Source: Streptomyces sp. CGMCC 4.7035 (GTDB taxonomy: Bacteria > Actinomycetota > Actinomycetes > Streptomycetales > Streptomycetaceae). Taken from it: 64,000 nt of DNA. The stretch spans positions 4,092,001 through 4,156,000 of the forward strand of contig NZ_CP134053.1 of the NCBI RefSeq assembly GCF_031583065.1, read 5' to 3'. The notes under the pieces are model-generated. The model was not told where the DNA came from. It did no database searches and saw only the letters and a list, made by a program, of their open reading frames with translations. Made by a program: the position numbers and the translations under genes. Numbering within the stretch: position 1 is the first letter of the stretch; each line of letters opens with the position of its first letter. Below are positions 2,680 through 19,006 of the stretch, piece by piece.

Positions 2680-3975
2680 TCAGCGCGAGCGCAGGTCCAC
2701 GATCCGCCTGATCTTCCCCACCGACCTCTCCAAGGACTCGGGTTCGACGATCTCGACCCCGACGGAGACGCCGATCCCGTCCTTCACGGCCGCGGCGATG
2801 GCGAGCGCTGCCGCCTGGCGCTGCTCGGGTGTGGCGCCGGTGCGGGCCTCGGCCCGCACCGTCAGCGCGTCGAGCCGGCCCTCACGGGTGAGCCGGAGCT
2901 GGAAGTGCGGTGCCACGCCGGGGGTGCGCAGCACGATCTCCTCGATCTGGGTGGGGAAGAGGTTCACGCCCCGCAGGATGACCATGTCGTCGCTGCGGCC
3001 GGTGATCTTCTCGATCCGCCGGAAGACACGGGCGGTGCCCGGCAGCAGGCGGGTCAGGTCCCGGGTCCGGTAGCGGATGACGGGCATGGCCTCCTTGGTG
3101 AGGGAGGTGAAGACCAGCTCGCCCTCCTCGCCGTCGGGCAGCACCTGACCGGTGATGGGGTCGACGACCTCGGGGTAGAAGTGGTCCTCCCACACATGGA
3201 GGCCGTCCTTGGTCTCGACGCACTCCTGTGCCACGCCCGGACCGATCACCTCCGACAGGCCGTAGATGTCGACCGCGTCGATCGCGAACCGCTCCTCGAT
3301 CTCGCGCCGCATCTCCCCGGTCCACGGCTCGGCGCCGAAGATCCCGACGCGCAGGGAGGTGCCGCGCGGGTCGACGCCCTGGCGCTCGAACTCGTCGAGG
3401 AGGGTCAGCATGTAGGAGGGGGTGACCATGATGATGCCGGGCTTCAGGTCCTGGATCAGCTGCACTTGGCGTGCCGTCATGCCGCCGGAGGCGGGGATCA
3501 CCGTACAGCCGAGGCGTTCGGCGCCGTAGTGGGCGCCGAGGCCACCGGTGAACAGGCCGTAGCCGTACGCCACATGCACCGTGTCGCCGGGCCGGCCGCC
3601 CGCCGCGCGGATCGAACGGGCCACCATGTCCGACCACATGGACAGGTCGTTGTCGGTGTAACCCACGACCGTGGGGCGCCCGGTGGTGCCGCTGGAGGCG
3701 TGGATCCTGCGGATCCGCTCCCGGGGCACGGCGAACATCCCGTACGGGTAGTTCTCCCGCAGGTCCGCCTTCACGGTGAACGGGAAGCGCGCGAGATCGT
3801 CGAGCGTGCGGCAGTCGTCCGGGTGGACGCCGGCCTTGTCGAAGGACTCCCGGTAGAAGGGCACGTGCGCGTACGCGTGCCGCAGCGAGGCACGCAGCCG
3901 CTCCAGCTGCAGGGCGCGCAGGCCCTCCGCGTCGAGCCGTTCCCCCGCGTCCAGCAGGTCCCGCGCATCGGCCAT
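2680..3975 (-). CDS. paaK: Phenylacetate-CoA ligase
   Basis: A 431-residue PaaK-type adenylate-forming enzyme, the usual family length. The ATP-binding motif HASSGTTGRPTVVGYT is at residues 92-107. The C-terminal part carries the PaaK-typical ITGRSDDMVILRGVN stretch and ends in KIRRIVDLR. PaaK catalyses phenylacetate + ATP + CoA to phenylacetyl-CoA, the entry step of phenylacetate catabolism. The start ATG (3975) has GGGAG upstream. No other paa genes are visible beside it, so it is a solitary copy here. It could serve aryl-acid activation generally. An 18-base inverted repeat about 40 bases upstream (4014-4031) suggests TetR-type control. Confidence 0.92.
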   Translation of the reverse strand: MADARDLLDAGERLDAEGLRALQLERLRASLRHAYAHVPFYRESFDKAGVHPDDCRTLDDLARFPFTVKADLRENYPYGMFAVPRERIRRIHASSGTTGRPTVVGYTDNDLSMWSDMVARSIRAAGGRPGDTVHVAYGYGLFTGGLGAHYGAERLGCTVIPASGGMTARQVQLIQDLKPGIIMVTPSYMLTLLDEFERQGVDPRGTSLRVGIFGAEPWTGEMRREIEERFAIDAVDIYGLSEVIGPGVAQECVETKDGLHVWEDHFYPEVVDPITGQVLPDGEEGELVFTSLTKEAMPVIRYRTRDLTRLLPGTARVFRRIEKITGRSDDMVILRGVNLFPTQIEEIVLRTPGVAPHFQLRLTREGRLDALTVRAEARTGATPEQRQAAALAIAAAVKDGIGVSVGVEIVEPESLERSVGKIRRIVDLRSR

Positions 3976-4013
3976 GGGGACGTCTCCCTCACCATCACAT
4001 CGATCCGGACGAC

Positions 4014-4031
4014 CGACCGATCATTCGGTCG
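4014..4031. promoter_or_regulatory. Putative TetR-type operator upstream of paaK
   Basis: A perfect inverted repeat with 7-base arms CGACCGA and TCGGTCG around the spacer TCAT, placed 39 bases before the paaK start. Arm length and spacing suit a TetR-family dimer, and PaaR-type regulators control paaK elsewhere. No tetR gene is in the window, so the regulator is unknown. Confidence 0.5.
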
Positions 4032-4187
4032 AGCTGCTGGGGATCAGTAATCCAGTCCGCAGGGCCGGAGGCAAGGGGTCGGCCCGGACTTTCCGGCCGC
4101 GCACGCTCCGGAGGCCGCCGCCCCGTCCGTCGCCCCTCTGCGAGAACTCCGTTGCGGGCGGACGACCCATCCGTGAAGATCGGGACC

Positions 4188-5033
4188 ATGCCGAGCTTCC
4201 ATTCCTACGACGGGACCCGACTCGCCTACCATCTGCGGGGAAACGGGGGAGCGGGGGATCCGCTCGTCGTGCTGCCGGGAGGGCCGATGCGGGCCTCCGA
4301 GTACCTCGGGGATCTCGGTGGGCTCGGCGCGCGGCGCCCGCTGGTGCTGCTCGATCTGCGAGGTACCGGGGAATCGGCGCTGCCCGCGGACCCCGCGACG
4401 TACCGTTGCGACCGGCTCGTCGACGACGTGGAGGCGCTCCGCGTGCATCTCGGGCTCGAACGCATGGACGTACTTGGCCACTCGGCGGGCGGGAGCCTCG
4501 CCCTGCTGCACGCGGCCAGGTATCCGGAGCGCGTCTCGCGGCTCGCCCTGATCACCGCCACTCCATGGGCCCTGGGCATGCCCGCCACAGCCGAGAACCG
4601 GCTCGCGGCGGCCCGGCTGCGGAAGGGCGAGCCTTGGTTCGAGGACGCCTTCCCGGCGTTCGAGGCCTGGCTGACGGGGAACGGTGACTTCGACCTCACC
4701 TTCATGCCCTTCTTCTACGGTCGCTGGGACGAGGCCGCACGGGCCCACGCGGCGGCCGATGAGGAGCAGACCAACGACGACGCGGCGGACGTCTACGGCT
4801 CCGAGGGCGCGTACGACCCGCCCGCGACCAGGGCGGCGCTCGGGCGCCTGACCGCGCCCGTACTCGTGCTCGCGGGCGAACTCGACGGTGGAGCCCGTCC
4901 CGAACTCGCCCGTGGCGTCTGCGAGTTCGCCCCGCACACCGAGTTCTCGATCCAGCCGGGTGCCGGCCACTACCCGTGGCTGGACGACCCCGAGTGGTTC
5001 ACCGCCCGGGTGGGTGACTTCTTCGCCGGGTGA
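4188..5033 (+). CDS. Alpha/beta hydrolase fold protein
   Basis: A 281-residue alpha/beta hydrolase. A complete catalytic triad is visible: nucleophile Ser99 in GHSAGG, Asp233 in AGELDGG, and His261 in GAGHYPW. The oxyanion-hole region is LPGGPM near 29-34, and LRGTGES (58-64) is characteristic of the proline-iminopeptidase and haloperoxidase-like branch. The ATG at 4188 is preferred over an in-frame TTG at 4152, because the extra residues are unlike the family and MPSFHSYDG is a normal beginning. It has no signal peptide and is probably cytoplasmic. It transcribes toward the conservon. No neighbour reveals the substrate; small esters or N-terminal proline peptides are possible. Confidence 0.87.
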   Translation: MPSFHSYDGTRLAYHLRGNGGAGDPLVVLPGGPMRASEYLGDLGGLGARRPLVLLDLRGTGESALPADPATYRCDRLVDDVEALRVHLGLERMDVLGHSAGGSLALLHAARYPERVSRLALITATPWALGMPATAENRLAAARLRKGEPWFEDAFPAFEAWLTGNGDFDLTFMPFFYGRWDEAARAHAAADEEQTNDDAADVYGSEGAYDPPATRAALGRLTAPVLVLAGELDGGARPELARGVCEFAPHTEFSIQPGAGHYPWLDDPEWFTARVGDFFAG

Positions 5034-5278: not shown

Positions 5279-5875
5279 TCAGCGGCCGGCCAGTGGGGTC
5301 AGGCGGGCGGCCGCCTGGGCCCGGGCCGCCTCCAGGACCGCGAGCAGTACCGCCTTGCTGGAGGCGCGGCTGCGCACGTCGCACAGGATGACCGGTGTCG
5401 ACGGATCGAGGTCCAGCGCCGTCCGCACCTGCTCGACCGTGCAGTCGCGGCGCCCGTCGAAGCAGTTGACCCCCACCGCGAACGGGATCTCGCGCGCCTC
5501 GAAGAAGTCGATCGAGGCGAACGAGGCGTCCAGGCGACGCGTGTCCGCGAGGACGACGGCCGCCAGCGCGCCCGTCGCCAGGTCGTCCCACATGAACCAG
5601 AACCGGTCCTGACCGGGCGTACCGAACAGGTACAGCACCAGCTCCGGCGCGATGGTGATCCGGCCGAAGTCCATGGCGACGGTCGTCGATGCCTTGCCCT
5701 CCACACCGGAGAGGTCGTCGATCCCGAGGCTTGCCTCGGTCATGCGCTCCTCGGTCTCCAGCGGGGGCACCTCGCTCACCGAGCCCACCATGGTGGTCTT
5801 GCCCACGCCGAAGCCGCCCGCGATGAGGATCTTCAGCGCTGTCGGCATGACCGGCTCAGAGCTGACGGATACCAT
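5279..5875 (-). CDS. cvnD: Conservon GTPase (CvnD type)
   Basis: A 198-residue Ras-like/MglA-like GTP-binding protein. The P-loop GGFGVGKTT is at residues 20-28, a Walker-B-like FGTPGQDRF follows, and the guanine-specificity region is VGVNCFDG. It is the last gene of a four-gene conservon in which a histidine-kinase-like protein, a Roadblock protein and a DUF742 protein form a membrane-associated complex with the GTPase. In Streptomyces such complexes influence development and antibiotic production. The start ATG (5875) overlaps the end of the DUF742 gene by 20 bases; MPTALK at 5848 is an alternative start. Overlap with the upstream gene implies translational coupling in one operon. Confidence 0.93.
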   Translation of the reverse strand: MVSVSSEPVMPTALKILIAGGFGVGKTTMVGSVSEVPPLETEERMTEASLGIDDLSGVEGKASTTVAMDFGRITIAPELVLYLFGTPGQDRFWFMWDDLATGALAAVVLADTRRLDASFASIDFFEAREIPFAVGVNCFDGRRDCTVEQVRTALDLDPSTPVILCDVRSRASSKAVLLAVLEAARAQAAARLTPLAGR

Positions 5876-6230
5876 CCATCACCCTTTCGATGAGTTCCAC
5901 ACTCGGCTGCTCCTCCTGCCCGGGCGGCGATTGGACGATGATGAGCGCGGCGTTGAGCAGATCCCCGCAGAGGATCTTCACCACGCTCACCGGCAGGTCC
6001 AGATGCGCGGCGATCTCGGCGACCGCCACCGCGCGATCCCGGCAGAGTTCGAGGATCTGGGCCGACTCCGGCTCCAGGGTGTCGTCATCGAACTCATGCG
6101 CGGATCGCGAGACGACCAGCGTGATGAGTGTGAAGGTGTGCTGACTGTGGCGGGTGCGCCCGCCCGTGATGGCGTACGGCCGTAAGTGACGCCCGGCCTC
6201 CGCACCGTCGAGCCATCGCGGTTCACGCAT
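5856..6230 (-). CDS. cvnC: Conservon DUF742 protein (CvnC type)
   Basis: A 124-residue protein beginning MREPRW and containing the LRPYAITGGRT stretch typical of DUF742. A predicted winged-helix-like C-terminal half includes EIAAHLDLPVSVVKILCGDLL, a pattern of helix-turn-helix relatives. In conservons this protein links the sensor and the GTPase; its biochemical role is unsettled. The ATG at 6230 overlaps the end of the Roadblock gene by 8 bases. A longer reading from 6275 would overlap far more and adds atypical residues. It ends 20 bases inside the GTPase gene. Confidence 0.92.
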   Translation of the reverse strand: MREPRWLDGAEAGRHLRPYAITGGRTRHSQHTFTLITLVVSRSAHEFDDDTLEPESAQILELCRDRAVAVAEIAAHLDLPVSVVKILCGDLLNAALIIVQSPPGQEEQPSVELIERVMDGIRQL

Positions 6231-6654
6231 CCTGTATATGACCGCCTGAAGGGGTCTGCACGCGCGGCGCGGCACTCATGTACTGGCCGACCTGCTTGAC
6301 GAGGGTGCCCATCTCGAAGGCCATCATGCCCACATCCACTTCCTCCGACGCGATCGCGGCCAGCCGCGCTCCCCTGCCCGCGGCGGTGACGAACAGGAAC
6401 GCTCTTTCCATCTGAATGACCGTCTGCTGGACCTCGCCGCCGTGGAAATGGCGCGCGGCGCCGCGCGCCAGGCTGTGCATGCCCGAACCCACCGCGGACA
6501 GGTGTTCGGCGTCGTCCCGGCGCAGGTCCTTCGACTTGCCGATGAGGAGGCCGTCTCCGGACAGCACGATGGCGCACCGGATCTCCGGGATCCGGTCCAC
6601 CAGGCCGTCGAGGAGCCAGTCCAGCTGCGGACCGGGTTGTACCTGCTCAGTCAT
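6223..6654 (-). CDS. cvnB: Conservon Roadblock/LC7 protein (CvnB type)
   Basis: A 143-residue Roadblock/LC7-fold protein. It begins MTEQVQ and contains LDWLLDGLVDRIPEIRCAI, LSGDGLLIGKSK and ERAFLFVTAAGRGARLA, as in MglB-like GTPase regulators. It is expected to act on the partner GTPase. Two starts are possible. An ATG at 6672 overlaps the sensor-kinase stop as ATGA. The chosen ATG at 6654 sits about 10 bases after GAGGGA and matches the usual family beginning. Either way it is tightly coupled to the upstream sensor gene. Confidence 0.93.
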   Translation of the reverse strand: MTEQVQPGPQLDWLLDGLVDRIPEIRCAIVLSGDGLLIGKSKDLRRDDAEHLSAVGSGMHSLARGAARHFHGGEVQQTVIQMERAFLFVTAAGRGARLAAIASEEVDVGMMAFEMGTLVKQVGQYMSAAPRVQTPSGGHIQDA

Positions 6655-6668
6655 TGTGTAACGTTCCC

Positions 6669-9320
6669 TCATAGTTGATTGGCACCGGGTTCCCTCGAAT
6701 CCGTCGACCGGCCGTCCGCGCCGGCCGGCCCGTCCGTCTCGGACATCCGGGCCCGCTTCAGCCCCTGCTGAATGGCGATCATCGCGCGCGCCGACGCGTC
6801 CGGGGAGATGACGCCCTTGTCCCCCTCGCCCTCTGGTCGGCCTTGTGTCTGTGCTGCCTCCTTGCGCAGTTGCTGCGCAAGGCTGGCTCCCCGAGTCCGT
6901 TGCGGCAGGACCTGGGGGGTCGTCAGGGGCCGCGCCGCGTCGGGCTCCGGCGCCTGCCCGGCGGGCGCGGTGCGTCCGGCGCCGGGCTCGCGGCCGGGTG
7001 GCGGTCCGGCCTGCGGCTGGGCGTGGCCGGCCGCAGGCCCGGGGTACCCGGACCGGTCGCCGGAGGCCGCCGCGTGCGCGGTGGTGTGTGTCTGCGGAAC
7101 CGGGGCCTGCTGTGCCGGGGCCCACTGGTCCGGCGCGGGAGACGGTACGGGATGTTCCGACGCGGGCGGCAACAGACCTGCACCTCCGTACTCGGGGAAG
7201 CCGCTGTGGTCCGGAAGGCGCGTGTGCGTGAGTACGTCCGCACCGGCGCCCACGGCGGCGGCCACACCACCGGCCGCCCCCACGACCGCGCCCGCGAAGG
7301 CCCTGTCCTCCGCGTCCAGGGCGGCCTGCCGGGACTCGGTCTCCAGCACATGGCCGGCCGCCGCCGCGGCCGCCGACTTGAGCTGGTCCAGAACCGGCGA
7401 CTGGTGCTCCTCCAGCAGGGCCGAGGGCAGCAGGACGACGACGAGCGTGCCGCCGTACACGGACTCGCGCAGCTCCACCTTGATCTTGTGCCGCTCGGCG
7501 AGCCGGGCCACCACGAAGTGGCCGAGGCGCGGGTCCTCGCCCAGGGACGTCATGTCCAGCTTGGGCGGGTGGGCGAGCAGTTCGTTGGCGTACGCCATCT
7601 TCTCCGCGGGCATGCCGAGACCGTGGTCCTCGACATGGATGGCCAGACCCTTGGCCACCTTCGTCGCGCTCACGGAGACCTGGGTGTCCGGCGGCGAGAA
7701 GCTCGTGCCGTTCTCGATCAGCTCGGCGAGCAGGTGCGTGACGTCCGCGACGGCCCGGCCCGCGAGGGCGACGCGCCGGTCCGAGGGGAGGTTCTTCACC
7801 TTGACGCGGGTGTACTGCTCGGTCTCCGCGACGGCGCTGCGCATCACATCGGTGAGGGAGACCGGCGCGGTCATCCGGCGGCTGGGCGGGGAACCACTGA
7901 GGATCACCAGGTTCTCCGCGTGGCGCCGCACCCGGGTGGCGAGGTGGTCGACCTTGAAGATGTCCTTCAGCAGGTCGGAGTCCTCGTGCTTGCGTTCCAG
8001 GTCGTCCAGGAGCGAGATGAGGCGGTGGATGAGGATCTGAGTGCGGCGGATGAGCTGGGCGAAGACCTTCTCCGTGCCCTCGCGGCCCAGGGACTGGCGC
8101 ACCGCGGTGTCCGCCGCGACCCGGCCCAGCCGGTCGATGGCACCGGCCAGCCGCTCCAGCTCGTCGGTGGCGTGGTGGCCCTGCGGGGCGAGCACGGCCG
8201 GGTCGACCCGCTCGCCCCGTTCTATTCGGGCGAGCAGCAGCGGCAGCGTGCGGGTGAGCTCCTCGGTCCGCGACTGCAGCTCGGTGAGCCGGCCCAGCGT
8301 GGCGCGGCGGGCGCGCAGTGCCAGCACCGCGCCGCCGGCCAGCGCGGCCAGGGTGGCGGCGGTGCCCAGGAGCATGCCGAGCAGCAGGTCGTCGGCCCGG
8401 CCCGAGGCGTCGTCCGCCAGTCCCCGCAGGGACTCCGCGCCGAGGGACCGCAGGTCACCGAGGACGCCGTCGGCGGCGTCCGGCCACGACGATGCCCTCT
8501 GCGGCAGCGCGGTGCCCTTGGCCGTGGCCATGGAGTCGCCGATCGTTCCCAGCGTCGTCCACTGCGCGCCATCGGTGATCCGCGCATACCCGGTGGCCGT
8601 GCCGGCGGGCAGATGACCGGTGGTCAGGCCCGCGCGGAACTCCCGCTGGAGCGCCAGGTACTCCGCGAACTGGGCGCGGGTCACGGCCGGCATCCTGCCG
8701 GAGGGCAGCGCGCCGGACAGCAGCGCGTCCTGGCGGGACAGCATCTCCGTGATCTGCACCAGGGACGCCGTGGCGGCGCCACCGTTCGCGAGGGAAGCGT
8801 CGTCGCTGCGGACGGCCGCCGTCACCAGCGAGACGCCCCGGGTGATGGTGTCGGTGAAGTACTGGAAGGCGTCGGCGGCGGACAGGGAGCGTCCGTCGAT
8901 CGCCTCGCGGCGGTCGGCGAGGGCCGCGAGCGCGTCGTCGAGCGACTTCGCCCGGCGCCGCAGGTCCGAGGTGTCCGGGCCCGCGGAACCGCGGTAGGCC
9001 CGGATGGCGGCGTCGGTCTTCTTGCGGGCGGCGTCGAGATCCGTACGGGCGGAGGAGGTGCGACCCGCCTGCCGGACGGCGGTGAGGCGGCGCTCGTTCT
9101 GCAGGGCGGACAGCACCGCCTGGGCCGGCCGGGCGACGGACGAGTCGCGGTCCGCGTCGGCCTGCAGCTGTATGTGCTCGTCGACGAGGCCGGCCGCCGT
9201 GTACCCCCACAGTCCGGTGAGACAGACCGCGGGCACGACGAAGGGCAGGACGAACGAGAATCGGAGAGATCTGCGCGGGGCGGACCGATGACGTGTCCGC
9301 CGGTCGCGGGTGCCTGGCAT
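6669..9320 (-). CDS. cvnA: Conservon sensor histidine-kinase-like protein (CvnA type, NIT domain)
   Basis: An 883-residue membrane sensor. TM1 lies near residues 22-45, then comes a large extracellular nitrate/nitrite-sensing-like helical domain. A second TM (LLLGMLLGTAATLAALAGG) precedes a HAMP-like linker and a HATPase domain with N-box ELIENGTSFSPP and G-box DHGLGM. A long Pro/Ala-rich tail follows, ending in a conserved helix (ARAMIAIQQGLKRAR). The ATG at 9320 is favoured by GAGGAAT four bases upstream; an earlier in-frame start at 9413 is less likely. A clear phospho-acceptor His box is not obvious, as is common for CvnA proteins, so signalling may run through the GTPase. It heads the operon cvnABCD; no cytochrome P450 (cvnE) gene follows. 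Confidence 0.92.
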   Translation of the reverse strand: MPGTRDRRTRHRSAPRRSLRFSFVLPFVVPAVCLTGLWGYTAAGLVDEHIQLQADADRDSSVARPAQAVLSALQNERRLTAVRQAGRTSSARTDLDAARKKTDAAIRAYRGSAGPDTSDLRRRAKSLDDALAALADRREAIDGRSLSAADAFQYFTDTITRGVSLVTAAVRSDDASLANGGAATASLVQITEMLSRQDALLSGALPSGRMPAVTRAQFAEYLALQREFRAGLTTGHLPAGTATGYARITDGAQWTTLGTIGDSMATAKGTALPQRASSWPDAADGVLGDLRSLGAESLRGLADDASGRADDLLLGMLLGTAATLAALAGGAVLALRARRATLGRLTELQSRTEELTRTLPLLLARIERGERVDPAVLAPQGHHATDELERLAGAIDRLGRVAADTAVRQSLGREGTEKVFAQLIRRTQILIHRLISLLDDLERKHEDSDLLKDIFKVDHLATRVRRHAENLVILSGSPPSRRMTAPVSLTDVMRSAVAETEQYTRVKVKNLPSDRRVALAGRAVADVTHLLAELIENGTSFSPPDTQVSVSATKVAKGLAIHVEDHGLGMPAEKMAYANELLAHPPKLDMTSLGEDPRLGHFVVARLAERHKIKVELRESVYGGTLVVVLLPSALLEEHQSPVLDQLKSAAAAAAGHVLETESRQAALDAEDRAFAGAVVGAAGGVAAAVGAGADVLTHTRLPDHSGFPEYGGAGLLPPASEHPVPSPAPDQWAPAQQAPVPQTHTTAHAAASGDRSGYPGPAAGHAQPQAGPPPGREPGAGRTAPAGQAPEPDAARPLTTPQVLPQRTRGASLAQQLRKEAAQTQGRPEGEGDKGVISPDASARAMIAIQQGLKRARMSETDGPAGADGRSTDSREPGANQL

Positions 9321-9558
9321 CTGATTCCTCGTACGGCAGCGAAACACTGGTTCGGTGGGGGGCGGTGCGAAATGCCGGATTGTGCCCGGCGAGCCGACTT
9401 GACTCACCGTCATCGAAGTCGGCGATCAGGCTGAACCGTATCAGGATCATGGCGCAGCGTCAGCATTCGTCTGCGGCAACTGCCAACCGCGGGTCGCGAG
9501 TTGGCTGGCAGTCCGCTGGGTGAATTGCTGCCGTTACCCGAGTAAGTGCGAGAGTGTC

Positions 9559-10746
9559 TCAGAGTAGAGCGAGAAGTTTTGGCGTATATAGGGCCCCCGC
9601 CGTCTCGATTCCGGCCACCATGTCGAAGTAGATGGCGGTCAGTTCGGAATCCGTCTGTACGGCCCGCAGCAGCGACAGCCGCTGCTCGTGCGGGGTGGTG
9701 AGCCGGGCCACGCCGAGTGTGGATTCGTATCCGGGGGTCAGAGCCGCGTCGCGTTCCTTGGCGAACTCCCGGAGCGCCGCGTCGAGTTCGGCCGGATCGC
9801 CGCCGAGCAGGCCGTCCAGGCGACGTACCAGGGCGTCCACCTGCAAGAACGCGTCGCTGATCCCGCGCGCGGTGATGGAGTCCTTGTGGTGCCCCGCGTC
9901 GCCCACCAGGACCCAGCCGGGCCCGGCCGCCTGCCGGAAGAAGTTCTGCTGGTCGCCGGTGCCGCGCAGCCGCTCGACCGGCTCCCGGCCACGCAGCCGC
10001 TCGTACAGGGCGGGCGCCGTGGTGCGGATCTGTTCCAGGTAGGCCCGCCGCGCGTCGGTGCGGACCGCCTCGAAGCGGGATTGCGGGAAGTAGGCGAGCA
10101 CGAGTGTCGCCGCGTCATGGGTGGCCACCGCCGCGACCCAGCTGCCCGGACGCTCATGCAGCTCCAGTGTGGCCGGTACGTCCGCCCAGTACGTGTAGTA
10201 GGCGCAGGTCAGCCGGGGATCCTCGACCGTGTACGGTGCCTGAGTGAGCCGGGCGACGGTCGAGCGCATCCCGTCCGCGCCGATCACCAGATGCGCGCGT
10301 TCGGTGAAGGAACGGCCGTCGTGGCTGCCCTCCACACCGATGACGCGTCCGCTGTCGTCGCGCAGCAGCCCGGTTACCCGGCAGCGGTCGCGCACCTCGA
10401 CGCCCGCCGCGGCCGCGGCCTCCACCAGGATGGCGTCCAGCACATGGCGGCGCGGGGCGAAGGAGGCGCGCTGCCCCTCCACGCCCCGGGCGCATCCTTC
10501 GAGGCGGATGTCGGCGACCTCGTAGACCGCGTGGTCCAGGGGCGGGCACCCGGAGGCGCGTACCGCGTCCAGCAGTCCCCAGCGGGCGAGCGCGGCCACG
10601 CCCGGCTGATGGATGAGATGGGTGGAGAGGGTGTCGGTGCCGGTGGGGGCCTTGTCGAGCAGGAGTACCCGGTACCCCGCGCGGGCCAGCAGCATGGCGG
10701 TGGGCGCACCGGCGCAGCGGGCGCCTACCACGATGGCGTCGAACAT
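9559..10746 (-). CDS. FAD-dependent oxidoreductase (PHBH/geranylgeranyl-reductase-like)
   Basis: A 395-residue flavoprotein of the p-hydroxybenzoate-hydroxylase fold. The FAD-binding N-terminus VVGARCAGAPTAMLLARAGY shows the usual beta-alpha-beta turn in relaxed GxGxxG form. DTLSTHLIHQPG and, near residue 270, GDAGHHKDSITARGISDAF (FAD pyrophosphate and ribityl contact) are family landmarks. ATG 10746 has GAGGCAACCC just upstream. It is the third gene of a minus-strand operon after the KS-ACP and adenylation genes (66-base gap). The inferred job is therefore to oxidise or reduce the carrier-bound or released product. Monooxygenase, desaturase and halogenase activities cannot be separated by sight; the Trp motif of flavin halogenases (WxWxIP) is absent. 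Confidence 0.87.
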   Translation of the reverse strand: MFDAIVVGARCAGAPTAMLLARAGYRVLLLDKAPTGTDTLSTHLIHQPGVAALARWGLLDAVRASGCPPLDHAVYEVADIRLEGCARGVEGQRASFAPRRHVLDAILVEAAAAAGVEVRDRCRVTGLLRDDSGRVIGVEGSHDGRSFTERAHLVIGADGMRSTVARLTQAPYTVEDPRLTCAYYTYWADVPATLELHERPGSWVAAVATHDAATLVLAYFPQSRFEAVRTDARRAYLEQIRTTAPALYERLRGREPVERLRGTGDQQNFFRQAAGPGWVLVGDAGHHKDSITARGISDAFLQVDALVRRLDGLLGGDPAELDAALREFAKERDAALTPGYESTLGVARLTTPHEQRLSLLRAVQTDSELTAIYFDMVAGIETAGALYTPKLLALL

Positions 10747-10812
10747 GGGGTTGCCTCACAACAGACGTCGGGGGGTGGGGTGTTGTGGTGGTGTGACCCG
10801 GACACGCGTGGG

Positions 10813-12351
10813 TCAGCGGGGGTGCCCGAGTTCGCCGAGCACGGCCCGCCGGTCGATCTTGCCGTTGGCGTTCAGCGGCAGTTGATCGAGAACGGCGATG
10901 CGGCGGGGCAGCATGTACGGCGGCAGTCGGTCGCCCAGCGCCGCGTACAGCCCGTCGGAGGTGCAGCCGGCGCCGCTGACCGCGGCGTGCAGCTCCGGTT
11001 CGCCGTCGGGGGCGGGCACGGCCAGGACGAGGGCGTCCCGCACCCCGGTCTGCTGTCGCAACATGGCCTCGATCTCGCCGAGTTCGATCCGGTGGCCGCG
11101 GATCTTCACCTGGTGATCGGTCCGCCCGAGGTGGACGAGGTGCCCGTCGCTGAGGGCGACCCGGTCCCCGGTGCGGTACCAGTGCTGGTCGGTCAGCGGC
11201 TCGCCGCCGCCGGGCCGGCCGTCGGGGGCGAGGAAGCGCCCCGCGTTGTTCGCCGGGTCGAGGTATCCCGGGAACCGCAGCGGGCCGCGCACGTACAGTT
11301 CGCCGTGGTCGGAGGGGCGGCCGTCCTCGTCGAGCAGCAGCAGGTCGAGGACCGGGTAGCCGGTGCCGATGGGAGCGGTCCCATTAGGAGTGCCGGGCCA
11401 TTCGGCCGGGTCTTCGGGGAACCGGTACGCCGTGCAGGAGATGGTGAGTTCGGTGGGGCCGTAGAGGACTTCGAGACGGCTGCCCGGCGCGGCGGTCCGC
11501 CACTCCCGGGCCGCGTCCAGGGTGAGCGGTTCGCCGCCGAAGACGCTCCACCGCAGCGTGGGCATGCTGTTCGGGGTCAGGGTGCCGAGGCGGGAGGCGA
11601 AGGAGATCAGCGACGGCACCGAGAACCAGTGGGTGAGCCGCAGGTTGTTGATCGTCCTCACCGGGGACAGGAGCTGGCTGCGCTGGGGCACCACGAGGGT
11701 GCCGCCGCCCGCCCAGGCGACGAACAGGTCGTGCACGGAGCCGTCGAAGGTCAGCTCGAAGGACTGCGACAGCCGGCTGCCCGGCCCGATGTCGTACCGC
11801 GGGGCGACCTGGGAGAGGTAGGCGGAGAGGTTGCGGTGCGGGATCGGTACGCCCTTGGGGGTGCCCGTCGACCCGGAGGTGAAGATGATGTACGCGAGGT
11901 CGTCCGGACCGGCTTCGACATACGGCAGTTCGGGCGCGGGGCCGTCGGCCAGGCTCGACAGCTCCTCGGGGCCCACCGGGAGGACGGGCACCCCGAGGTC
12001 GGTGCCCGCCTCCGGGGAGTCGGTCAGCACGACCTCCGCCTCGGCGGCCTTCACGATGTCGGCCGTGCGTCCCGACGGGTGCTCGGGGTTGAGGGGGACG
12101 ACGGTCGCGCCGGCCCGCAGGACGGCGAGGTAGCCGGCGTACGCGGTCACCGAACGGCTCGCCAGCAGGCCCACGCGGCGCGGCGGGGTACCACCGGCCG
12201 CCGCGACAAGGCGGGCGGCGAGCCGTTCCGAGAGGTCGCGCAGCCGTGCGTAGGTGAGCCGGTCCTCGCCCACTTCCAGCGCGACGGCGTCGTCCCCGTA
12301 CGTGTCGGCGGAGCGGGCGAACCAGGCGTACGCGGTCTGCGGTTCGCTCAT
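10813..12351 (-). CDS. Stand-alone NRPS adenylation enzyme
   Basis: A 512-residue amino-acid-activating domain with no carrier domain attached. Core motifs are in order: A3 YIIFTSGSTGTPKG (154-167), A4 FDGSV with the alpha-amino-binding Asp203, A5 LYGPTE (296-301), A8 RGHRIELGEIE, and A10 NANGKIDR with catalytic Lys498. Reading pocket positions by eye gives D, G and H for the first three and L, I and S later. I cannot match this code to a known amino acid. ATG 12351 overlaps the KS-ACP stop as ATGA, so translation is coupled. The only carrier in reach is the ACP of that neighbour, so charging it in trans is the natural inference. Confidence 0.92.
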   Translation of the reverse strand: MSEPQTAYAWFARSADTYGDDAVALEVGEDRLTYARLRDLSERLAARLVAAAGGTPPRRVGLLASRSVTAYAGYLAVLRAGATVVPLNPEHPSGRTADIVKAAEAEVVLTDSPEAGTDLGVPVLPVGPEELSSLADGPAPELPYVEAGPDDLAYIIFTSGSTGTPKGVPIPHRNLSAYLSQVAPRYDIGPGSRLSQSFELTFDGSVHDLFVAWAGGGTLVVPQRSQLLSPVRTINNLRLTHWFSVPSLISFASRLGTLTPNSMPTLRWSVFGGEPLTLDAAREWRTAAPGSRLEVLYGPTELTISCTAYRFPEDPAEWPGTPNGTAPIGTGYPVLDLLLLDEDGRPSDHGELYVRGPLRFPGYLDPANNAGRFLAPDGRPGGGEPLTDQHWYRTGDRVALSDGHLVHLGRTDHQVKIRGHRIELGEIEAMLRQQTGVRDALVLAVPAPDGEPELHAAVSGAGCTSDGLYAALGDRLPPYMLPRRIAVLDQLPLNANGKIDRRAVLGELGHPR

Positions 12352-14288
12352 CGGGCGGCCGCCTCGAGGGCACGCGTCCACTGGCGCAGCTCGCCCACGG
12401 TGCGCAGCCTGCCGAACTCCTCCGGGTCGACCTCCTGGCTGGACCGTTTGGTCAGCTCGACCACGATCCGCAGCTTCGCCAGCGAGTCGATCCCGATGTC
12501 GGTGAGGGTGGAGGCGTCGTCGAAGCCGGTGCGGGCGTGCTCGCGCAGTACCCAGGTCGCCAGGTCGCCGCCGCCGTGCTCGTGCTGTTCGCCGGGCCAG
12601 TACCGCTTGGTCTGCCAGGGGTAGGTGGGCAGCGGCACGAAGCGGCCACCGCCTCCGAACACCTTCTCCCAGTCCACGTCCTCGCCCCGGCGGTAGCGGT
12701 CGGCGACGGCCGACAGCGGTCTGCCGCCGAGCGTCGGCGACCCGGTGAGCGCCGCCGCCAGCTCCTCATGGCTCGCCCCGACGACCGCCAGCCGGTGCGC
12801 GTGGTGCTGTCGGCGGGTGGCCGCGCTGAAGCAGATGTCGCGCACGGGGTACGCGGTCCCCGCGCCGCCGGGGGAGAGGTGGGCGGCGTACGACCGGGCG
12901 AGAGCCTCCAGGGCGGCGGGGCCGCGCGCGGAGAGGACGAGGAGGTACGGCGTGCCGTCCGCGGCCGGTACGACCGGCGCGTCGACGGGGTCGGGTCTGC
13001 GGATCACCACGTGTGCGTTGAGCGCGGAGGAGCCCTGCCCGGAGATCCCGGCGACGGCCGGCCGCCCCGTCTCCGGAAGGTCGACGAGGGAGCCGGGCAC
13101 CACCAGCGGCAGCTCGTCCCAGGCCACGTCGGGATTCGGCGCGGACAGATGCAGGCTCGCGGGGACCTGGCCGTGCTCCAGGCAGAGCACGGCCTTGATC
13201 AGCCCCGCCAGCCCGCCCGCGGCCTCCCCGTGCCCGATGTTCGTCTTGACCGAGCCGACGAGCAGCGGCCGGTCCGCCGGGCGTCCCTCGCCCAGGACCC
13301 GGCCCAGCGCGCTCAGTTCCAGGGGGTCGAGCGCGGGCGATCCGGAGCCGTGCGCCTCGACGTAGTCGACGTCCGCGGGATCGATTCCGGCGTCCTCGTA
13401 CGCCCAGCGCAGCACCTCGATCTGGCCTTCCAGGGAAGGGTTGAGCACCGAGTCGCTGGTGCGGCCGTCGTTGCCGACGGCGCTGCCCCGGATGACGGCG
13501 CGTATGCGGTCTCCGTCGGCCAGCGCGTCCGTGAGCCGCTTGAGGACGACGACCGCCACCGCGTCGCTGGGGGCGTGGCCGTCGGCGTTCGCGTCGCCGA
13601 ACTTGCTGCGCCCGTCGGCGGCCATGCCGCCGGCCTGGGTCATCACCAGGCCCTCGTCGGGACGGAGCTTGAGGTTCACCCCCGCGGCCAGCGCCAGGGG
13701 ACTCTCCCGGGCGCGCAGGCTCTGCACGGCCTGGTGGACGGCCACCAAGGAGGATGAGCATGCTGTGTCCACGACAATACTGGGGCCGCGGAAGTCGAAG
13801 GCGTGGGAGATCCGGGCGGGCAGCAGCGAGCGGAAATTGTTCAGCTGCGAGGCGGTGGCGCCCTCCGGACCCTGGCGCAGGGCCAGCTCCAGGTAGTCCG
13901 CGCGGGCGTTGCCCACGAACACCCCGGTCCGGCTGCCGGCCAGCAGATCGGGCCGCTGCCCGGCGTCCTCCAGCGCCTCCCAGGCCGCCATCAGCAACAA
14001 CCGCTGCTGCGGGTCGAGTTCGAGCGCCTCGGTGGCGGACATCCCGAAGAACTCGGCGTCGAACTCGGCGATTTCTTCCACATAACCCGCACGACGGCTG
14101 GCTATGCGGCCCGGGCCGCGGGCGGAGTGGAGCGCGTCAACGTCGTAACGTTCAGGAGGGGTCTCGCTGGTGGCGTCGACGCCGTCTTTGAGGAGAGCCC
14201 ACAGCTCGTCGGTGCCCGACGCGCCGGGGAGCCGGCAGGCCATGCCGATCACGGCCACCGACCGGGCGTCCACGTCCGACCTGTTCAT
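12348..14288 (-). CDS. Type I polyketide synthase KS-ACP protein lacking an acyltransferase domain
   Basis: A 646-residue didomain. The ketosynthase spans roughly 10-430, with nucleophile Cys177 in VDTACSSS, His313 in EAHGSGS and His353 in NIGHGEA. A KS-to-AT linker follows (SARGPAALEALA to HRLAVVGAS). The protein then passes directly to the usual post-AT linker (RYRRGEDVDW to LPTYPWQTKRYW). No AT domain (no GHSxG) remains between these linkers. An ACP covers about 570-646, with phosphopantetheine Ser602 in DIGIDSL. The ATG at 14288 follows GAAGGAG. Extender supply must come from a trans AT, or the ACP carries an amino acid from the next gene. The second KS motif is unusual: HGSGS where HGTGT is normal. 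Confidence 0.92.
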   Translation of the reverse strand: MNRSDVDARSVAVIGMACRLPGASGTDELWALLKDGVDATSETPPERYDVDALHSARGPGRIASRRAGYVEEIAEFDAEFFGMSATEALELDPQQRLLLMAAWEALEDAGQRPDLLAGSRTGVFVGNARADYLELALRQGPEGATASQLNNFRSLLPARISHAFDFRGPSIVVDTACSSSLVAVHQAVQSLRARESPLALAAGVNLKLRPDEGLVMTQAGGMAADGRSKFGDANADGHAPSDAVAVVVLKRLTDALADGDRIRAVIRGSAVGNDGRTSDSVLNPSLEGQIEVLRWAYEDAGIDPADVDYVEAHGSGSPALDPLELSALGRVLGEGRPADRPLLVGSVKTNIGHGEAAGGLAGLIKAVLCLEHGQVPASLHLSAPNPDVAWDELPLVVPGSLVDLPETGRPAVAGISGQGSSALNAHVVIRRPDPVDAPVVPAADGTPYLLVLSARGPAALEALARSYAAHLSPGGAGTAYPVRDICFSAATRRQHHAHRLAVVGASHEELAAALTGSPTLGGRPLSAVADRYRRGEDVDWEKVFGGGGRFVPLPTYPWQTKRYWPGEQHEHGGGDLATWVLREHARTGFDDASTLTDIGIDSLAKLRIVVELTKRSSQEVDPEEFGRLRTVGELRQWTRALEAAAR

Positions 14289-15106
14289 GACGTTACTCCT
14301 TCGATGCTTCGCCACGTCCATACGGGATGGCGCAGTTGACCTCGCCGCGTGACCTTGTGGGTGCTGAAGCGGCATCACGGCATTTACTGAGGGCGGCCCC
14401 GCGTACGCTCTGTGGCGTCCGTCACGCCGCCGTGCCGCCGGCCCCCGTTTCCGGGCGGAACAGGACGATTCGCTCGCAAGGCCCGCACGTCGTCGTGCCG
14501 GGCTCATCCGTCGGACGGCAGAGTCTCCCGAGCGGGCGGACCCTCGTCCGCGAGGAGGCACCGGGCCGTCGGCAGCCGCGTGGATCTTGGCGTGATTTCG
14601 CGCATGGCGCCCTGGCCGAAACGGCCGTGCCGCTCCCGCTCGCGACGGGAAGCCCGCAGCTCGAACCGTACTTGCCTCACCCCGCTGTGCCCTCTCTCGC
14701 AGGTGCATCGCACGAACTCATTACACACGGGCCGCATCGACGGAGCGCGCGCCACCCACCCCCACCACCTCTGTTCGAACCGTAGTTCGACCATTCGATG
14801 GTGCGTCGGGGCGGGCGTGTCAGCGTCGAAAACCAGACCGCCGCACGATTGTCGTATGCATAATCGTTTCCGCTCGATTGGTGCTCAAGGATTGGCGGGA
14901 AGTGATCGCTGGAGGTTGAAACCTGGAAATATTTGGACAGACTCCGAGTTTGGGCGTTCACGAGAGGCCGCAGGGGCGGGGCGGGCGCGCGGGACTCGCG
15001 CGACAACTCCCGCTGACTCGCGAGGGGTTGAATGTGAGACAGGTGATGCGGAAATTACCGGGAGGGGCGATCCGCGGAAGCCGGGATTCTGATTTCATCT
15101 GATCCC
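14289..15106. other. Long intergenic region between divergent KS-ACP and GAF genes
   Basis: This 818-base stretch separates two divergently transcribed genes and should hold both promoters. It contains a 13-base palindrome (ACCAT, TCG, ATGGT at 14790-14802) and locally AT-richer sequence around 14850-14940. Open frames exist on both strands, but their translations are Arg/Ser/Pro-rich and show no family features. I see no gene in it. Confidence 0.5.
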
Positions 15107-16168
15107 ATGGATCCCCTCTCATCCGACCAGGCCCGGCTCGCGGGCGAGCAGCGCAGGTTGCGACTGCAGGTTCTCGGCCTCAACACCGTCGAGGCGGAGG
15201 CCACCTTCGACCGTGTCGCACGCCTCGCCGCCAGCTTCACCCAGTCACCGTTGGCCATGGTCAACTTCATCAACGACGAGCGGCAGATGTTCCGCGGCAT
15301 GTACGTGCCCACCGCCTCGCCCGACGACAAGGTGAGTCCCGACGGCGCCGGGATCGCCTTCGACCTCAGCGACCTGTCCCGGGAGGCGCCCGGCGACTAC
15401 GGCTTCTGCCCCCATGTGGTGGCCCAGGGATCCCAACTGGCCCTGGACGACGTCTTCGACTACCCGCGCTTCAAGGGCAACCCGCTCGTCAATGACCTGG
15501 GCGTGCGCTCCTACCTCGGTACCCCGCTGCGCGACAACACTGGCATGATCCTGGGCACCGTGTGCGTCGCCGACACCAAGCCCCGTGTCTGGGACCGTGC
15601 GGTGCGCGAGGGCATGCAGCAACTCTCCGAGACCCTGCTGTCCGACTTCAAGCTGCGCGACAGCCTGCTGGCCCAGCAGCAGGAGCTGTTCGCCGTCTTC
15701 GACGGTGCACCGTTCCCCATCATGCTCACCGAGGGCCCCAACCACCTGCTGCGCTACGCCAACGGCAAGCAGGGCGCGGCCTTCGGCATGGTCCCGCAGT
15801 TCAGCCCCGGCCGTCTCGTGCTGCCCGGACTGGAGGCGGTGGGTGTCTTCAACGCGATGGACGACGCCTTCCACACCGGGCAGCCCGCCACGCTGTCGCG
15901 GGCCGCGATCAGCACGTACGACGATCCGCGGCCGCAGGACTTCAACTTCCTGTGCACACCGGTGCGTACGTCGCCCGGGGCGCCGGTCAGCGGTGTCCTC
16001 ACCGTGGCCATGAACACCACCGGGCAGGCCTACCCCGGCGCCGAGCAACAGGCCTTCGCGGCCAACGTCCAGGAACGGTTCGAGCGGCTCGGCGCGGGCG
16101 GTCTGCCGGGCGGGATGCCGGGCGGGATGCCGGGCCGGCGCGTGGAGAGCGCGGGGTATCCCCGCTGA
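15107..16168 (+). CDS. GAF-domain sensory protein
   Basis: A 353-residue soluble protein. Residues about 20-185 form a GAF domain: FDRVARLAASFTQSPLAMVNFI near the start, an FCPHVVAQG segment, and YLGTPLRDNTGMILGTVCVAD at its end. After a short helix, residues about 195-320 resemble a PAS fold (ELFAVFDGAPFPIMLTEGP...RYANGKQ). The tail repeats GGMPG. GAF and PAS domains bind small ligands or sense redox; no kinase, phosphatase or DNA-binding output domain follows, so it may act through a partner. ATG 15107 lacks a strong ribosome site. It ends just before a good terminator hairpin. Confidence 0.85.
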   Translation: MDPLSSDQARLAGEQRRLRLQVLGLNTVEAEATFDRVARLAASFTQSPLAMVNFINDERQMFRGMYVPTASPDDKVSPDGAGIAFDLSDLSREAPGDYGFCPHVVAQGSQLALDDVFDYPRFKGNPLVNDLGVRSYLGTPLRDNTGMILGTVCVADTKPRVWDRAVREGMQQLSETLLSDFKLRDSLLAQQQELFAVFDGAPFPIMLTEGPNHLLRYANGKQGAAFGMVPQFSPGRLVLPGLEAVGVFNAMDDAFHTGQPATLSRAAISTYDDPRPQDFNFLCTPVRTSPGAPVSGVLTVAMNTTGQAYPGAEQQAFAANVQERFERLGAGGLPGGMPGGMPGRRVESAGYPR

Positions 16169-16397: not shown

Positions 16398-18017
16398 TCA
16401 GCGATCCGCCGCCACCGCCACCTCCTTGGCCCAGCGGTAGTCCGCCTTGCCGCTGGGTGAGCGCTGGATGGTGTCCGTGATCACCAGCTGGCGCGGGATC
16501 TTGTAGCCCGCCAGATGAGCCCGGCAGTGGCTCTGGATGTCCTCCAGGGAGGGTCGGGTCGCGCCCTCGCGCAACTGCACGACAGCCGCCACATGGTTGC
16601 CCCACGTCGTGTCCGGCACCCCGGCGACCAGCGCGTCGTACACGTCCGGATGTGACTTGAGCGCCTGTTCGACCTCTTCCGGGTACACCTTCTCGCCGCC
16701 GGTGTTGATGCACTGCGAGCCGCGGCCGAGAACCGTGACGACACCCGCCTCGTCGACCGTTCCCATGTCACCGAGCAGCACCCACCGCTCGCCATGCCTC
16801 TGGAAGAACGTCTCGGCGGTTTTCCCCGGGTCGTTGTAGTACCCGAGCGGCACGTGACCGCGCTGGGCGATGCGGCCCACCTCACCGGCCGCGACCGGCT
16901 CACGGGTGACCGGATCCACCACCCGCGTACGGGAATTGACCCGGATGCGGAAGCCGTTGCCGGGGCCCGAGTCGGGGGTCGCGGTGCCGTTGAAGCCCGA
17001 CTCCGACGATCCGAAGTTGTTCAGCAGCATGGCGTTCGGAATGAGTGCCTGGAACTGGGCGCGCACGGTCTCCGACATGATCGCCCCGGACGACGACACG
17101 CTGAACAGGGACGAGCAGTCCGTGCCCTTCATCGGCCCGTTCAGCGCGTCGATCAGCGGCCGCAGCATCGCGTCGCCCACCAGCGACATGCTGGTGACCT
17201 TCTCCTTCTCGACGGTCCGCAGGACCTCATCCGGCATGAACTTGCGATGGATCACGATCCGCTGGCCGAAGTTGAATCCGATGAACGCCGTCAGCGTGGA
17301 AGTGCCGTGCATCAGCGGGGGAGTGGGGAAGAAGGTGATGCCCTCACCGCCGGCCGCGACCCGCTCGGCCAGCTCTTCGGGCTTCTTCACCGGCTCACCG
17401 GTCGGGGCGCCGCCGCCGAGCCCGGAGAAGAACAGGTCCTCCTGGCGCCACATCACACCCTTGGGCATGCCGGTCGTGCCGCCGGTGTAGATGATGAACT
17501 GGTCGTCCGCCGAGCGGGCCGGGAAGCCGCGATCGGGGGAGCCGGCGGCCTCGGCGTCGGCGAAGTCCACGGCGGACAGCGCGACGGCGTCCGGTGCGGG
17601 GGTCCCCACCCGCACCACATGCCGCAGCTTCTCCGCCCGCGGCAGCGCCGCCGCCACCCGGTCCGTGAACTCCGCGTCGAAGACGAGCGCCACCAGATCC
17701 GCGTCCCGGTAGAGGTACACCAACTCCTCTTCGACGTAGCGGTAGTTGACGTTGACCGGGACGACCCGGGCCTTCAGGCAGCCCAACACCGTCTGCAGGT
17801 ACTCCACCCCGTTGTAGAGGTGCAGCCCGACGTGCTCCCCCGGCCGTATCCCGCTGTCGACCAGGTGGTGCCCGATGCGGTTGGCGGCCGCGTCCAGCTC
17901 CGCGTAGGTCAGGCGGCGCTCCGCACCCGTGCCGGGGTGGTCGATGTACACGAGCGCCTCGCGGCCCGGAACCACGTCGACGACCGACTCGAACAGGTCG
18001 GCAAGGTTGTACTCCAC
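16398..18017 (-). CDS. Acyl-CoA synthetase (FadD-like, steroid/long-chain side-chain type)
   Basis: A 539-residue AMP-forming acyl-CoA synthetase. The ATP motif is IIYTGGTTGMPKGVMWRQ, followed by LNNFGSSESG, GERWVLLGDMG and the C-terminal SPSGKADYRW with the catalytic Lys. The form TGGTTGMPKGVMWR is typical of the FadD17/FadD19-like branch that activates sterol side-chain or branched acids in actinobacteria. GTG 18017 has GGAGGAGCG immediately upstream and is the clear start. It is divergent from the enoyl-CoA hydratase, DUF35 and thiolase-like genes. This suggests it supplies their acyl-CoA substrate. The exact acid is unknown. Confidence 0.9.
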   Translation of the reverse strand: MEYNLADLFESVVDVVPGREALVYIDHPGTGAERRLTYAELDAAANRIGHHLVDSGIRPGEHVGLHLYNGVEYLQTVLGCLKARVVPVNVNYRYVEEELVYLYRDADLVALVFDAEFTDRVAAALPRAEKLRHVVRVGTPAPDAVALSAVDFADAEAAGSPDRGFPARSADDQFIIYTGGTTGMPKGVMWRQEDLFFSGLGGGAPTGEPVKKPEELAERVAAGGEGITFFPTPPLMHGTSTLTAFIGFNFGQRIVIHRKFMPDEVLRTVEKEKVTSMSLVGDAMLRPLIDALNGPMKGTDCSSLFSVSSSGAIMSETVRAQFQALIPNAMLLNNFGSSESGFNGTATPDSGPGNGFRIRVNSRTRVVDPVTREPVAAGEVGRIAQRGHVPLGYYNDPGKTAETFFQRHGERWVLLGDMGTVDEAGVVTVLGRGSQCINTGGEKVYPEEVEQALKSHPDVYDALVAGVPDTTWGNHVAAVVQLREGATRPSLEDIQSHCRAHLAGYKIPRQLVITDTIQRSPSGKADYRWAKEVAVAADR

Positions 18018-18124
18018 CGCTCCTCCTGACCCCGGCAACGCTCGGCGAAGAAAGGCGCATCCATCGGTTCGCCGGTCATCAGAGCAAAGCCGGACGCAAC
18101 TGTGAAGGGTCCTCGCAGAAGAAA

Positions 18125-18141
18125 TCTGACTGTCTGTCAGA
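18125..18141. promoter_or_regulatory. Inverted repeat in the divergent promoter region
   Basis: TCTGAC and GTCAGA arms separated by 5 bases, between the divergent acyl-CoA synthetase (start 18017) and hydratase (start 18206). Shape and place suit a TetR-family operator controlling both transcripts. It does not match the KstR consensus (AAC/GTT core). Confidence 0.5.
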
Positions 18142-18205
18142 AAACTCTTGTCCTGGCTCCGCGCCTCCTGCAACCTGTTCTCGTTTCCCGAGACGGGAGG
18201 AAGCG

Positions 18206-19006
18206 ATGGGTGGGACGGAACACCTCGCCGTGCAGCGCGAAGGCGCCACACTGGTACTCACGCTCAACAGGCCCGAGGCCAGGAACGCGCTCTCGCTGCC
18301 CATGCTGGTGGGGCTGTACGACGGCTGGATCGAGGCCGACGAGGACGACGAGGTCCGCTCGATCGTGCTCACCGGCGCGGGCGGCTCCTTCTGCGCCGGT
18401 ATGGACCTCAAGGCCCTGGCCGGCAAGGGGATGGAGGGGCAGCAGTACCGCGACCGGCTGAAGGCCGACCCGGACCTGCACTGGAAGGCGATGCTGCGCC
18501 ACCATCGCCCCCGCAAACCGGTGATCGCCGCCGTGGAGGGGCCCTGCGTGGCGGGCGGCACCGAGATCCTCCAGGGCACCGACATCCGCGTCGCGGGCGA
18601 GTCCGCGACCTTCGGCCTCTTCGAGGTGAAGCGCGGACTGTTCCCGATCGGTGGCTCGACGGTCCGCCTCCAGCGGCAGATCCCCCGCACGCACGCCCTG
18701 GAGATGCTGCTCACCGGACGCCCCTACACGGCGCGCGAGGCCGTCGGCATCGGACTCGTCGGCCATGTCGTGCCCGACGGCACCGCGCTCGCCAAGGCCT
18801 TGGAGATCGCCGAACAGATCAACGCCTGCGGACCGCTCGCCGTCGAGGCCGTCAAGGCGTCCGTGTACGAGACCGCCGAGATGACCGAGACCGACGGGCT
18901 CGCCGCCGAGCTCAAGCGGGGTTGGCCGATCTTCGACACCGCGGACGCCAAGGAAGGCGCCCGCGCCTTCGCGGAGAAACGCCCACCCGTCTACAAGCGC
19001 GCCTGA
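18206..19006 (+). CDS. Enoyl-CoA hydratase/isomerase family protein
   Basis: A 266-residue crotonase. LVLTLNRPEARNALS near the start, the oxyanion-hole segments GGSFCAGMDLKALAG (about 71-84) and AVEGPCVAGGTEILQGTDIRVA (about 111-132) and the C-terminal EKRPPVYK are family features. It should hydrate an alpha,beta-unsaturated acyl-CoA. Position 134-141 reads ATFGLFEV, where the acidic catalytic residue of classical hydratases lies close by. ATG 18206 follows GGGAGGAAGC. It is the first gene of a four-gene plus-strand operon with the DUF35 and two thiolase-fold genes. The role in side-chain beta-oxidation is inferred from that context. Confidence 0.9.
   Translation: MGGTEHLAVQREGATLVLTLNRPEARNALSLPMLVGLYDGWIEADEDDEVRSIVLTGAGGSFCAGMDLKALAGKGMEGQQYRDRLKADPDLHWKAMLRHHRPRKPVIAAVEGPCVAGGTEILQGTDIRVAGESATFGLFEVKRGLFPIGGSTVRLQRQIPRTHALEMLLTGRPYTAREAVGIGLVGHVVPDGTALAKALEIAEQINACGPLAVEAVKASVYETAEMTETDGLAAELKRGWPIFDTADAKEGARAFAEKRPPVYKRA

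Follow-up and report, generated by a model that had tools for sequence, protein, structure and literature searches.

A stretch of 64,000 nucleotides (the window) from the single-contig, 8.09 Mb genome of Streptomyces sp. CGMCC 4.7035 contains a recurrent, mobile block of eight genes that combines biosynthesis with a sensor. A trio of minus-strand genes encodes a ketosynthase fused to an acyl carrier protein (KS-ACP), a stand-alone amino acid adenylation enzyme (A enzyme) and a flavin adenine dinucleotide (FAD)-dependent enzyme. It is flanked by a conservon, which is an actinobacterial G protein system, and by a divergent gene for a GAF-domain protein. The block is real, while the chemistry proposed for it is a prediction. 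Its genes, in window coordinates, are as follows.

12348..14288, minus strand: KS-ACP, 646 aa (Pfam, 38-row alignment, motif counts)
10813..12351, minus strand: stand-alone amino acid adenylation enzyme, 512 aa (TIGR01733, nearest solved structures, pocket counts)
9559..10746, minus strand: FAD-dependent oxidoreductase/monooxygenase, 395 aa (PF01494, 36-row alignment)
6669..9413, minus strand: CvnA-like sensor kinase with NIT domain, start codon tentative (PF08376, PF02518; RefSeq plasmid copy)
6223..6654, minus strand: CvnB-like roadblock/LC7 protein (PF03259; start set by plasmid-copy length)
5856..6230, minus strand: CvnC-like DUF742 protein (PF05331; start set by plasmid-copy length)
5279..5875, minus strand: CvnD-like ATP/GTP-binding protein (PF03029; plasmid copy annotated as ATP/GTP-binding protein)
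15107..16168, plus strand: divergent GAF-domain protein, 353 aa (PF01590)

A first-pass annotation of this DNA had placed three minus-strand frames at 9559-14288, and all three are present with those coordinates. It had also described the ATGA in which the KS-ACP stop and the A enzyme start overlap and the gap of 66 bases before the FAD gene, both of which are seen in the sequence. The A gene is translationally coupled to the KS-ACP gene. The KS-ACP frame is open from 14708; we chose the ATG at 14288, which is preceded by AGGAG and gives a protein of 646 aa, about as long as its relatives. The ratio of nonsynonymous to synonymous substitution rates (dN/dS), calculated against two relatives, is 0.16-0.27 for the KS-ACP, A and FAD genes, so the three trio genes are under purifying selection. 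Together with the ATGA overlap, which 30 of the 32 relatives with an A gene retain, this shows that the trio arrangement exceeds chance. The same annotation had called the trio an orphan, and this has to be revised: a conservon and a GAF gene, neighbours that had been missed, form a recurrent block together with it.

We scanned one genome per GTDB species and took the best 80 loci, 34 of which were counted as family. Loci with a sister KS (L056, L057) and 44 loci whose best segment was below 50% identity (L062-L105) were kept outside the synteny counts, and loci that end too early (L033, L034, L036, L060) were excluded from downstream counts. The A gene was found in 32 of the 34 family loci, the exceptions being L060, whose contig breaks off within the KS, and L058. 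The FAD gene comes next in 29 of the 30 family loci that extend 7 kb or more downstream, and a complete conservon is present in 25 of these 30 (missing in L045, L046, L055, L061 and L058). The GAF gene was found in 30/34 family loci and is missing from L045, L046, L055 and L061, which are the non-Streptomycetaceae loci. The CvnA of L053/L112 and the KS of L055 match in pieces only, and the CvnA of L107 and L143 gave a short match that was full length without composition correction. L058 has a KS-polyprenyl synthase frame (L058:10001-12700); the A, FAD and conservon genes are absent in the 7.3 kb downstream, and its GAF gene remains.

When sought in other genomes, the three-gene order recurs in 22 of 295 sampled Streptomyces genomes, own genome included. 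This sample was not chosen by score; of its 21 other genomes, 19 have matches to the full set of eight genes, and in the other two the locus is truncated by a contig end. About one in fourteen of the Streptomyces species sampled has this three-gene pathway, fixed to a single type of conservon. An order-wide sample gave matches in 8 of 245 genomes, all in Streptomyces, and a phylum-wide sample in 2 of 396.

The block order is kept, whereas the outer flanks vary between loci, except among close relatives. In Streptomyces sp. NBC_00445, the whole block lies near a terminal protein gene on a linear plasmid of 363,548 bases, and this copy was annotated independently by RefSeq. The four non-Streptomycetaceae loci carry the trio only, without conservon or GAF gene, and their KS copies form one supported group within a 25-row clade (99) that otherwise consists of Streptomyces rows. 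As the trio alone is kept in these loci, it looks like the whole catalytic unit. Together with the nested position in the tree, this suggests that it was transferred as a sufficient enzyme set; L055 counts weakly here because its KS matches in two pieces. The conservon is missing in all four, so the enzymes do not depend on it.

The KS-ACP matches the Pfam models for the N- and C-terminal ketoacyl synthase domains (ketoacyl-synt), KAsynt_C_assoc, the CurL-like linker PF22621 and PP-binding, the last with 21.7 bits against a cut-off of 20.8. The RhiE-like linker PF22336 matches below its cut-off, and the Pfam scan found no acyltransferase (AT) domain PF00698 in the protein. The catalytic triad Cys177, His313 and His353 is present, and the C-terminal ACP carries Ser602 within GIDSLAKL. 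In the KS-ACP alignment, Cys177 and His313 are invariant in all 38 rows, and His353 and Ser602 are found in at least 90%; 7 of the 41 KS rows in the motif count are second copies from the same genomes. Both the pre-AT linker (LSARxPxAL...DICxSAAxRRxHH) and the post-AT linker (VPLPxYPWQTKRYW) are kept, which indicates that the AT was excised cleanly from the KS. In Nocardia brevicatena, a sister KS with 58% identity stops at the same RYW, without an ACP. As this scar is common to both, the AT loss is old, predating their split. In the tree, the KS family sits among ketosynthases from larger polyketide synthase (PKS) proteins, two of which were domain-scanned and are KS-AT modules; the family-labelled rows of this tree include one unrelated KS of L040. 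Judged from its sequence, the protein is a PKS ketosynthase with an excised AT and an intact triad, fused to an ACP.

The A enzyme passes the TIGR01733 model for amino acid adenylation (360.5 bits, cut-off 317.4), and a profile scan found no carrier domain in it. Its pocket code is DGHFVGLIS-K. Over the 31 family rows of the alignment, from which L029 and L034 were omitted as their best match covers less than 85%, the code runs D, G/A, H/Y, F/W, V/I/L, G, L/V, I/V/C, S/T/A, K. D235 and K517 (GrsA numbering), which contact the alpha-amino group and the carboxylate, are each kept in 31/31 rows. This invariance makes an alpha-amino acid the likely substrate. DGHFVGLISK is not known to match any specificity code closely; the nearest known one is that for isoleucine, DGFFLGVVFK, with 5 of 10 positions in common. 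Stand-alone A enzymes with 56-60% identity also occur in two other recurring Streptomyces clusters. The first (L113, L115, L119, L120; L115 scanned) contains a pyridoxal phosphate-dependent decarboxylase, acyl-CoA dehydrogenases and a flavin reductase, and the second (L114, L118, L121, L122; L118 scanned) a discrete peptidyl carrier protein and a condensation-adenylation-thiolation nonribosomal peptide synthetase (NRPS).

The third enzyme matches PF01494, and its best solved matches are halogenases and monooxygenases with E 1.3e-8 or weaker. The FAD-binding pairs D158 G159 (DG) and G282 D283 (GD) are invariant in 36 flavoenzyme rows, as expected of a class A flavoprotein, and so is R10 of the nucleotide motif GARCAG. 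The motif of flavin-dependent halogenases, WxWxIP, is lacking: WVAAV stands at the aligned place, and the listed relatives have WxAAV or close variants. The reaction is likely a hydroxylation or a dehydrogenation.

The first-pass annotation had described the ACP of the KS gene as the only carrier, the adenylation enzyme as one for an amino acid and the FAD enzyme as oxidising. All three points are supported. It had also seen neither an AT nor a phosphopantetheinyl transferase (PPTase) in the trio, which is correct; elsewhere the genome encodes a stand-alone FabD-like AT of 366 aa by its frame, has three further AT domains that are parts of larger frames, and gives three PPTase matches. A longer homologous cluster at another genomic site, which it had named as counter-evidence, was not found, because the next KS is only 40% identical to the KS-ACP and the closest relative of the FAD enzyme 31%; neither gene has a second copy in the genome.

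Our tentative reading, to which we give somewhat less than an even chance, is that the trio is the catalytic core of a small hybrid NRPS-PKS pathway of prodigiosin-like logic, with the conservon and the GAF protein as its usual regulators. A housekeeping PPTase would prime the ACP of the KS-ACP, and the A enzyme would adenylate an L-alpha-amino acid and load it onto this ACP in trans. The aminoacyl group would shift to the KS cysteine, FabD acting in trans would recharge the ACP with malonyl, and condensation by the KS would give a beta-keto-gamma-amino thioester. As there is no thioesterase in the eight-gene block, this thioester may leave by cyclisation or decarboxylation. The flavoenzyme would hydroxylate or desaturate the ACP-bound or released product, and in the order that we favour this oxidation falls between amino-acid loading and the KS condensation. 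The conservon and the GAF protein may detect an input, possibly the product, and adjust expression accordingly. If this reading holds, it shows how far a hybrid NRPS-PKS can shrink: one KS-ACP, one A enzyme and one flavoenzyme.

The bipyrrole of prodigiosin and the prodiginines is started by PigI, PigG, PigA, PigJ and PigH. Like the trio, this start-up has a stand-alone A enzyme, carrier loading, oxidation by a flavoenzyme and a KS without a fused AT. Unlike it, the trio has a carrier fused to the KS, a flavoenzyme of PF01494 rather than the acyl-CoA dehydrogenase type, and no aminotransferase-like release domain. Identity with PigJ was rejected, as NCBIfam NF053555 gave 97.2 bits against a cut-off of 900. 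The KS-ACP also resembles trans-AT PKS ketosynthases in its AT-flanking linkers without an AT and in its matches to the CurL-like and RhiE-like linker models, but it is one free-standing protein, not an assembly line, and the block has no dedicated trans-AT. The AOX alkyloxazole cluster (PMC13367870) was set aside as another three-gene set, of a thioesterase, an O-methyltransferase and an NRPS. No product or description of the trio's gene set was found in the open-licence PMC literature.

Several points weigh against the hybrid pathway. One ACP carrying an amino acid and then malonyl would be unusual. The flavoenzyme is a broad-family match only (best PDB E 1.3e-8), and IdnL7, the closest solved relative of the A enzyme, belongs to a group whose aminoacyl acceptor on the carrier is an amine rather than a thiol. 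The absence of the conservon from 4/4 non-Streptomycetaceae loci makes the link to the trio usual, not needed, and L058, without A, FAD and conservon, has a KS frame that runs into a polyprenyl synthase domain.

The A enzyme may instead work as VinM and IdnL7 do, which we consider unlikely. The aminoacyl-AMP would then be attacked by an amine, either of an ACP-bound amino acid or free, to form an amide, and the KS-ACP would handle another acyl group. The A enzymes of these macrolactam clusters are the nearest solved relatives over the pocket, with 8k4r and IdnL7 (6akd) as the closest single-domain structures, and F278, L322 and I330 are common to them and the A enzyme. In an excerpt of a review, D216 and K500 are the corresponding alpha-amino and carboxylate contacts of IdnL7, which accepts Gly, L-Ala and L-Ser via C217, A285 and T318. 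All three of these specificity residues differ in the A enzyme of the window (G, G and S), which argues against this alternative; over the 31 rows, position 236 is G in 24 and A in 7, position 301 is G in all 31, and position 331 is S in 26, T in 3 and A in 2. The block also lacks a second amino-acid loading enzyme that would put an amine on the ACP, and the partner genes of VinM and IdnL7 differ from those of the trio.

We hold it equally unlikely that the KS performs no Claisen condensation and transfers or releases the aminoacyl group in an acyltransferase-like manner, which would make the product an oxidised amino acid derivative with no added carbons. Such a role is consistent with the lack of an AT in the block, as the A enzyme and the flavoenzyme alone could yield a modified amino acid, and with a sister clade in which a PrnB-like enzyme and a flavoenzyme accompany the same AT-less KS. 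The complete Cys-His-His triad under purifying selection and the place of the KS family among ketosynthases of larger PKS proteins speak against it.

The system of this sister clade comprises a PrnB-family protein, a class A flavoenzyme, an AT-less KS, a KAS III-like sequence and a discrete ACP, at the following loci.

L057:7495-12999: sister system
L056:7469-11725: sister system
L127:9579-15064: sister system

Pfam identified the KAS III in L057, and the matching frames of L127 look broken. The KS is 54-58% identical to that of the trio and has the same AT scar, and a PrnB-family amino-acid-type enzyme again accompanies a flavoenzyme. Unlike the trio, the sister system has no A enzyme and its ACP is discrete. 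Its flavoenzyme is not an orthologue of that of the trio (33% over 69 residues), and no published product of the system was found.

Turning to regulation, conservons are outlined in a literature excerpt as four-protein systems of a kinase, a roadblock protein, a DUF742 protein and a GTPase. The genes at 5279-9413, directly downstream of the trio, have the order CvnA-B-C-D according to Pfam and the RefSeq plasmid copy. Pfam found no DNA-binding domain in the GAF protein. In an excerpt of PMC13343842, GAF accessory genes (CvnF) overwhelmingly go with CvnA proteins without a sensory domain. The present CvnA carries a NIT domain, and its GAF gene sits past the trio on the opposite strand, which does not fit the arrangement described for CvnF. 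As the GAF gene is kept near a CvnA with NIT, either the block departs from this rule or its GAF protein is something other than CvnF. Excerpts of two further papers describe a conservon, fkmR1-R4, inside the type II PKS cluster of frankiamicin (PMC4383371) and cvn8 mutants that alter expression of the adjacent lan (lanthipeptide) cluster (PMC8510531). As in the trio block, a conservon adjoins biosynthetic genes in both; they differ in that the trio recurs with the same conservon and GAF gene in many species.

The ligands of conservons are not known and their targets mostly not known; the trio and its conservon offer a small testable metabolite-sensor pair. The NIT part of CvnA has a median identity of 52.7%, compared with 78.1% for the kinase part (24 loci each). 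This would be expected if receptors and ligands vary together, although sensor domains often diverge fast. A speculative and quite improbable extension is that the product of the trio is a small diffusible amino-acid-derived ketide that acts as a ligand of the NIT domain (outside) or of the GAF protein (inside). If true, a new class of hormone that is not a butyrolactone would move among Streptomyces together with its G-protein-type receptor, as one mobile block.

We regard it as very unlikely that the conservon and the GAF gene are accidental neighbours by common descent, with no functional link to the trio. Their absence from the four non-Streptomycetaceae loci would fit such an origin, as would the abundance of conservons, evident from 11 DUF742 loci in the genome, but the block order is kept while the outer flanks differ, and the whole block is found on a linear plasmid. 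The pairwise distances of KS, A, FAD, GAF, CvnB and CvnD correlate (r 0.79-0.95, with 0/999 permutations as high for each protein pair), computed without correction for species relatedness, which alone could give much of the correlation. Scarcely credible is that the trio is a decaying remnant of a larger PKS-NRPS: the KS has lost its AT, and decay is seen in L058 and in the two-piece KS match of L055, but the dN/dS values, the catalytic residues kept in 38 rows and the recurrence in 22/295 genomes disfavour it.

The region between the divergent KS and GAF genes contains one further feature.

14841..14942, minus strand: conserved block (GTTTCAACC..GCGATCACTTCCCGCC..GACAATC; 31 intergenic regions aligned)

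Most of the 31 regions share this stretch of about 100 bases, which lies upstream of the KS gene; its conservation is weakest in L043, L047 and L050-L053, and its core pattern has one occurrence in the genome. In the window it carries the dyad AGGTTTCAACCT. The dyad AGGTTNNAACCT has exact copies in the window and at 6 of 36 loci (L026-L061), which argues that the wider block is what is conserved, not the dyad. Rfam gave no RNA family in 9300-15300 up to E 0.5, a sigma-70-type promoter scan gave no match, and PADLOC matched none of the eight block proteins.

Genes for FadD, an enoyl-CoA hydratase, PaaK and an alpha/beta hydrolase (16398-19006, 2680-5033) were excluded from the block, as they recur only in the nearest relatives scanned; matches of FadD and enoyl-CoA hydratase at other loci are weak. 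A second conservon lies on the opposite strand, approximately 3-7 kb past the GAF gene, in L028, L038, L039 and L049, and L033, L034 and L036 have only a piece of CvnA past the GAF gene before the contig end. Elsewhere in the genome, at around 769000-874000, there is a very large NRPS region with frames of 11857, 6493, 10802 and 6598 aa and many adenylation domains.

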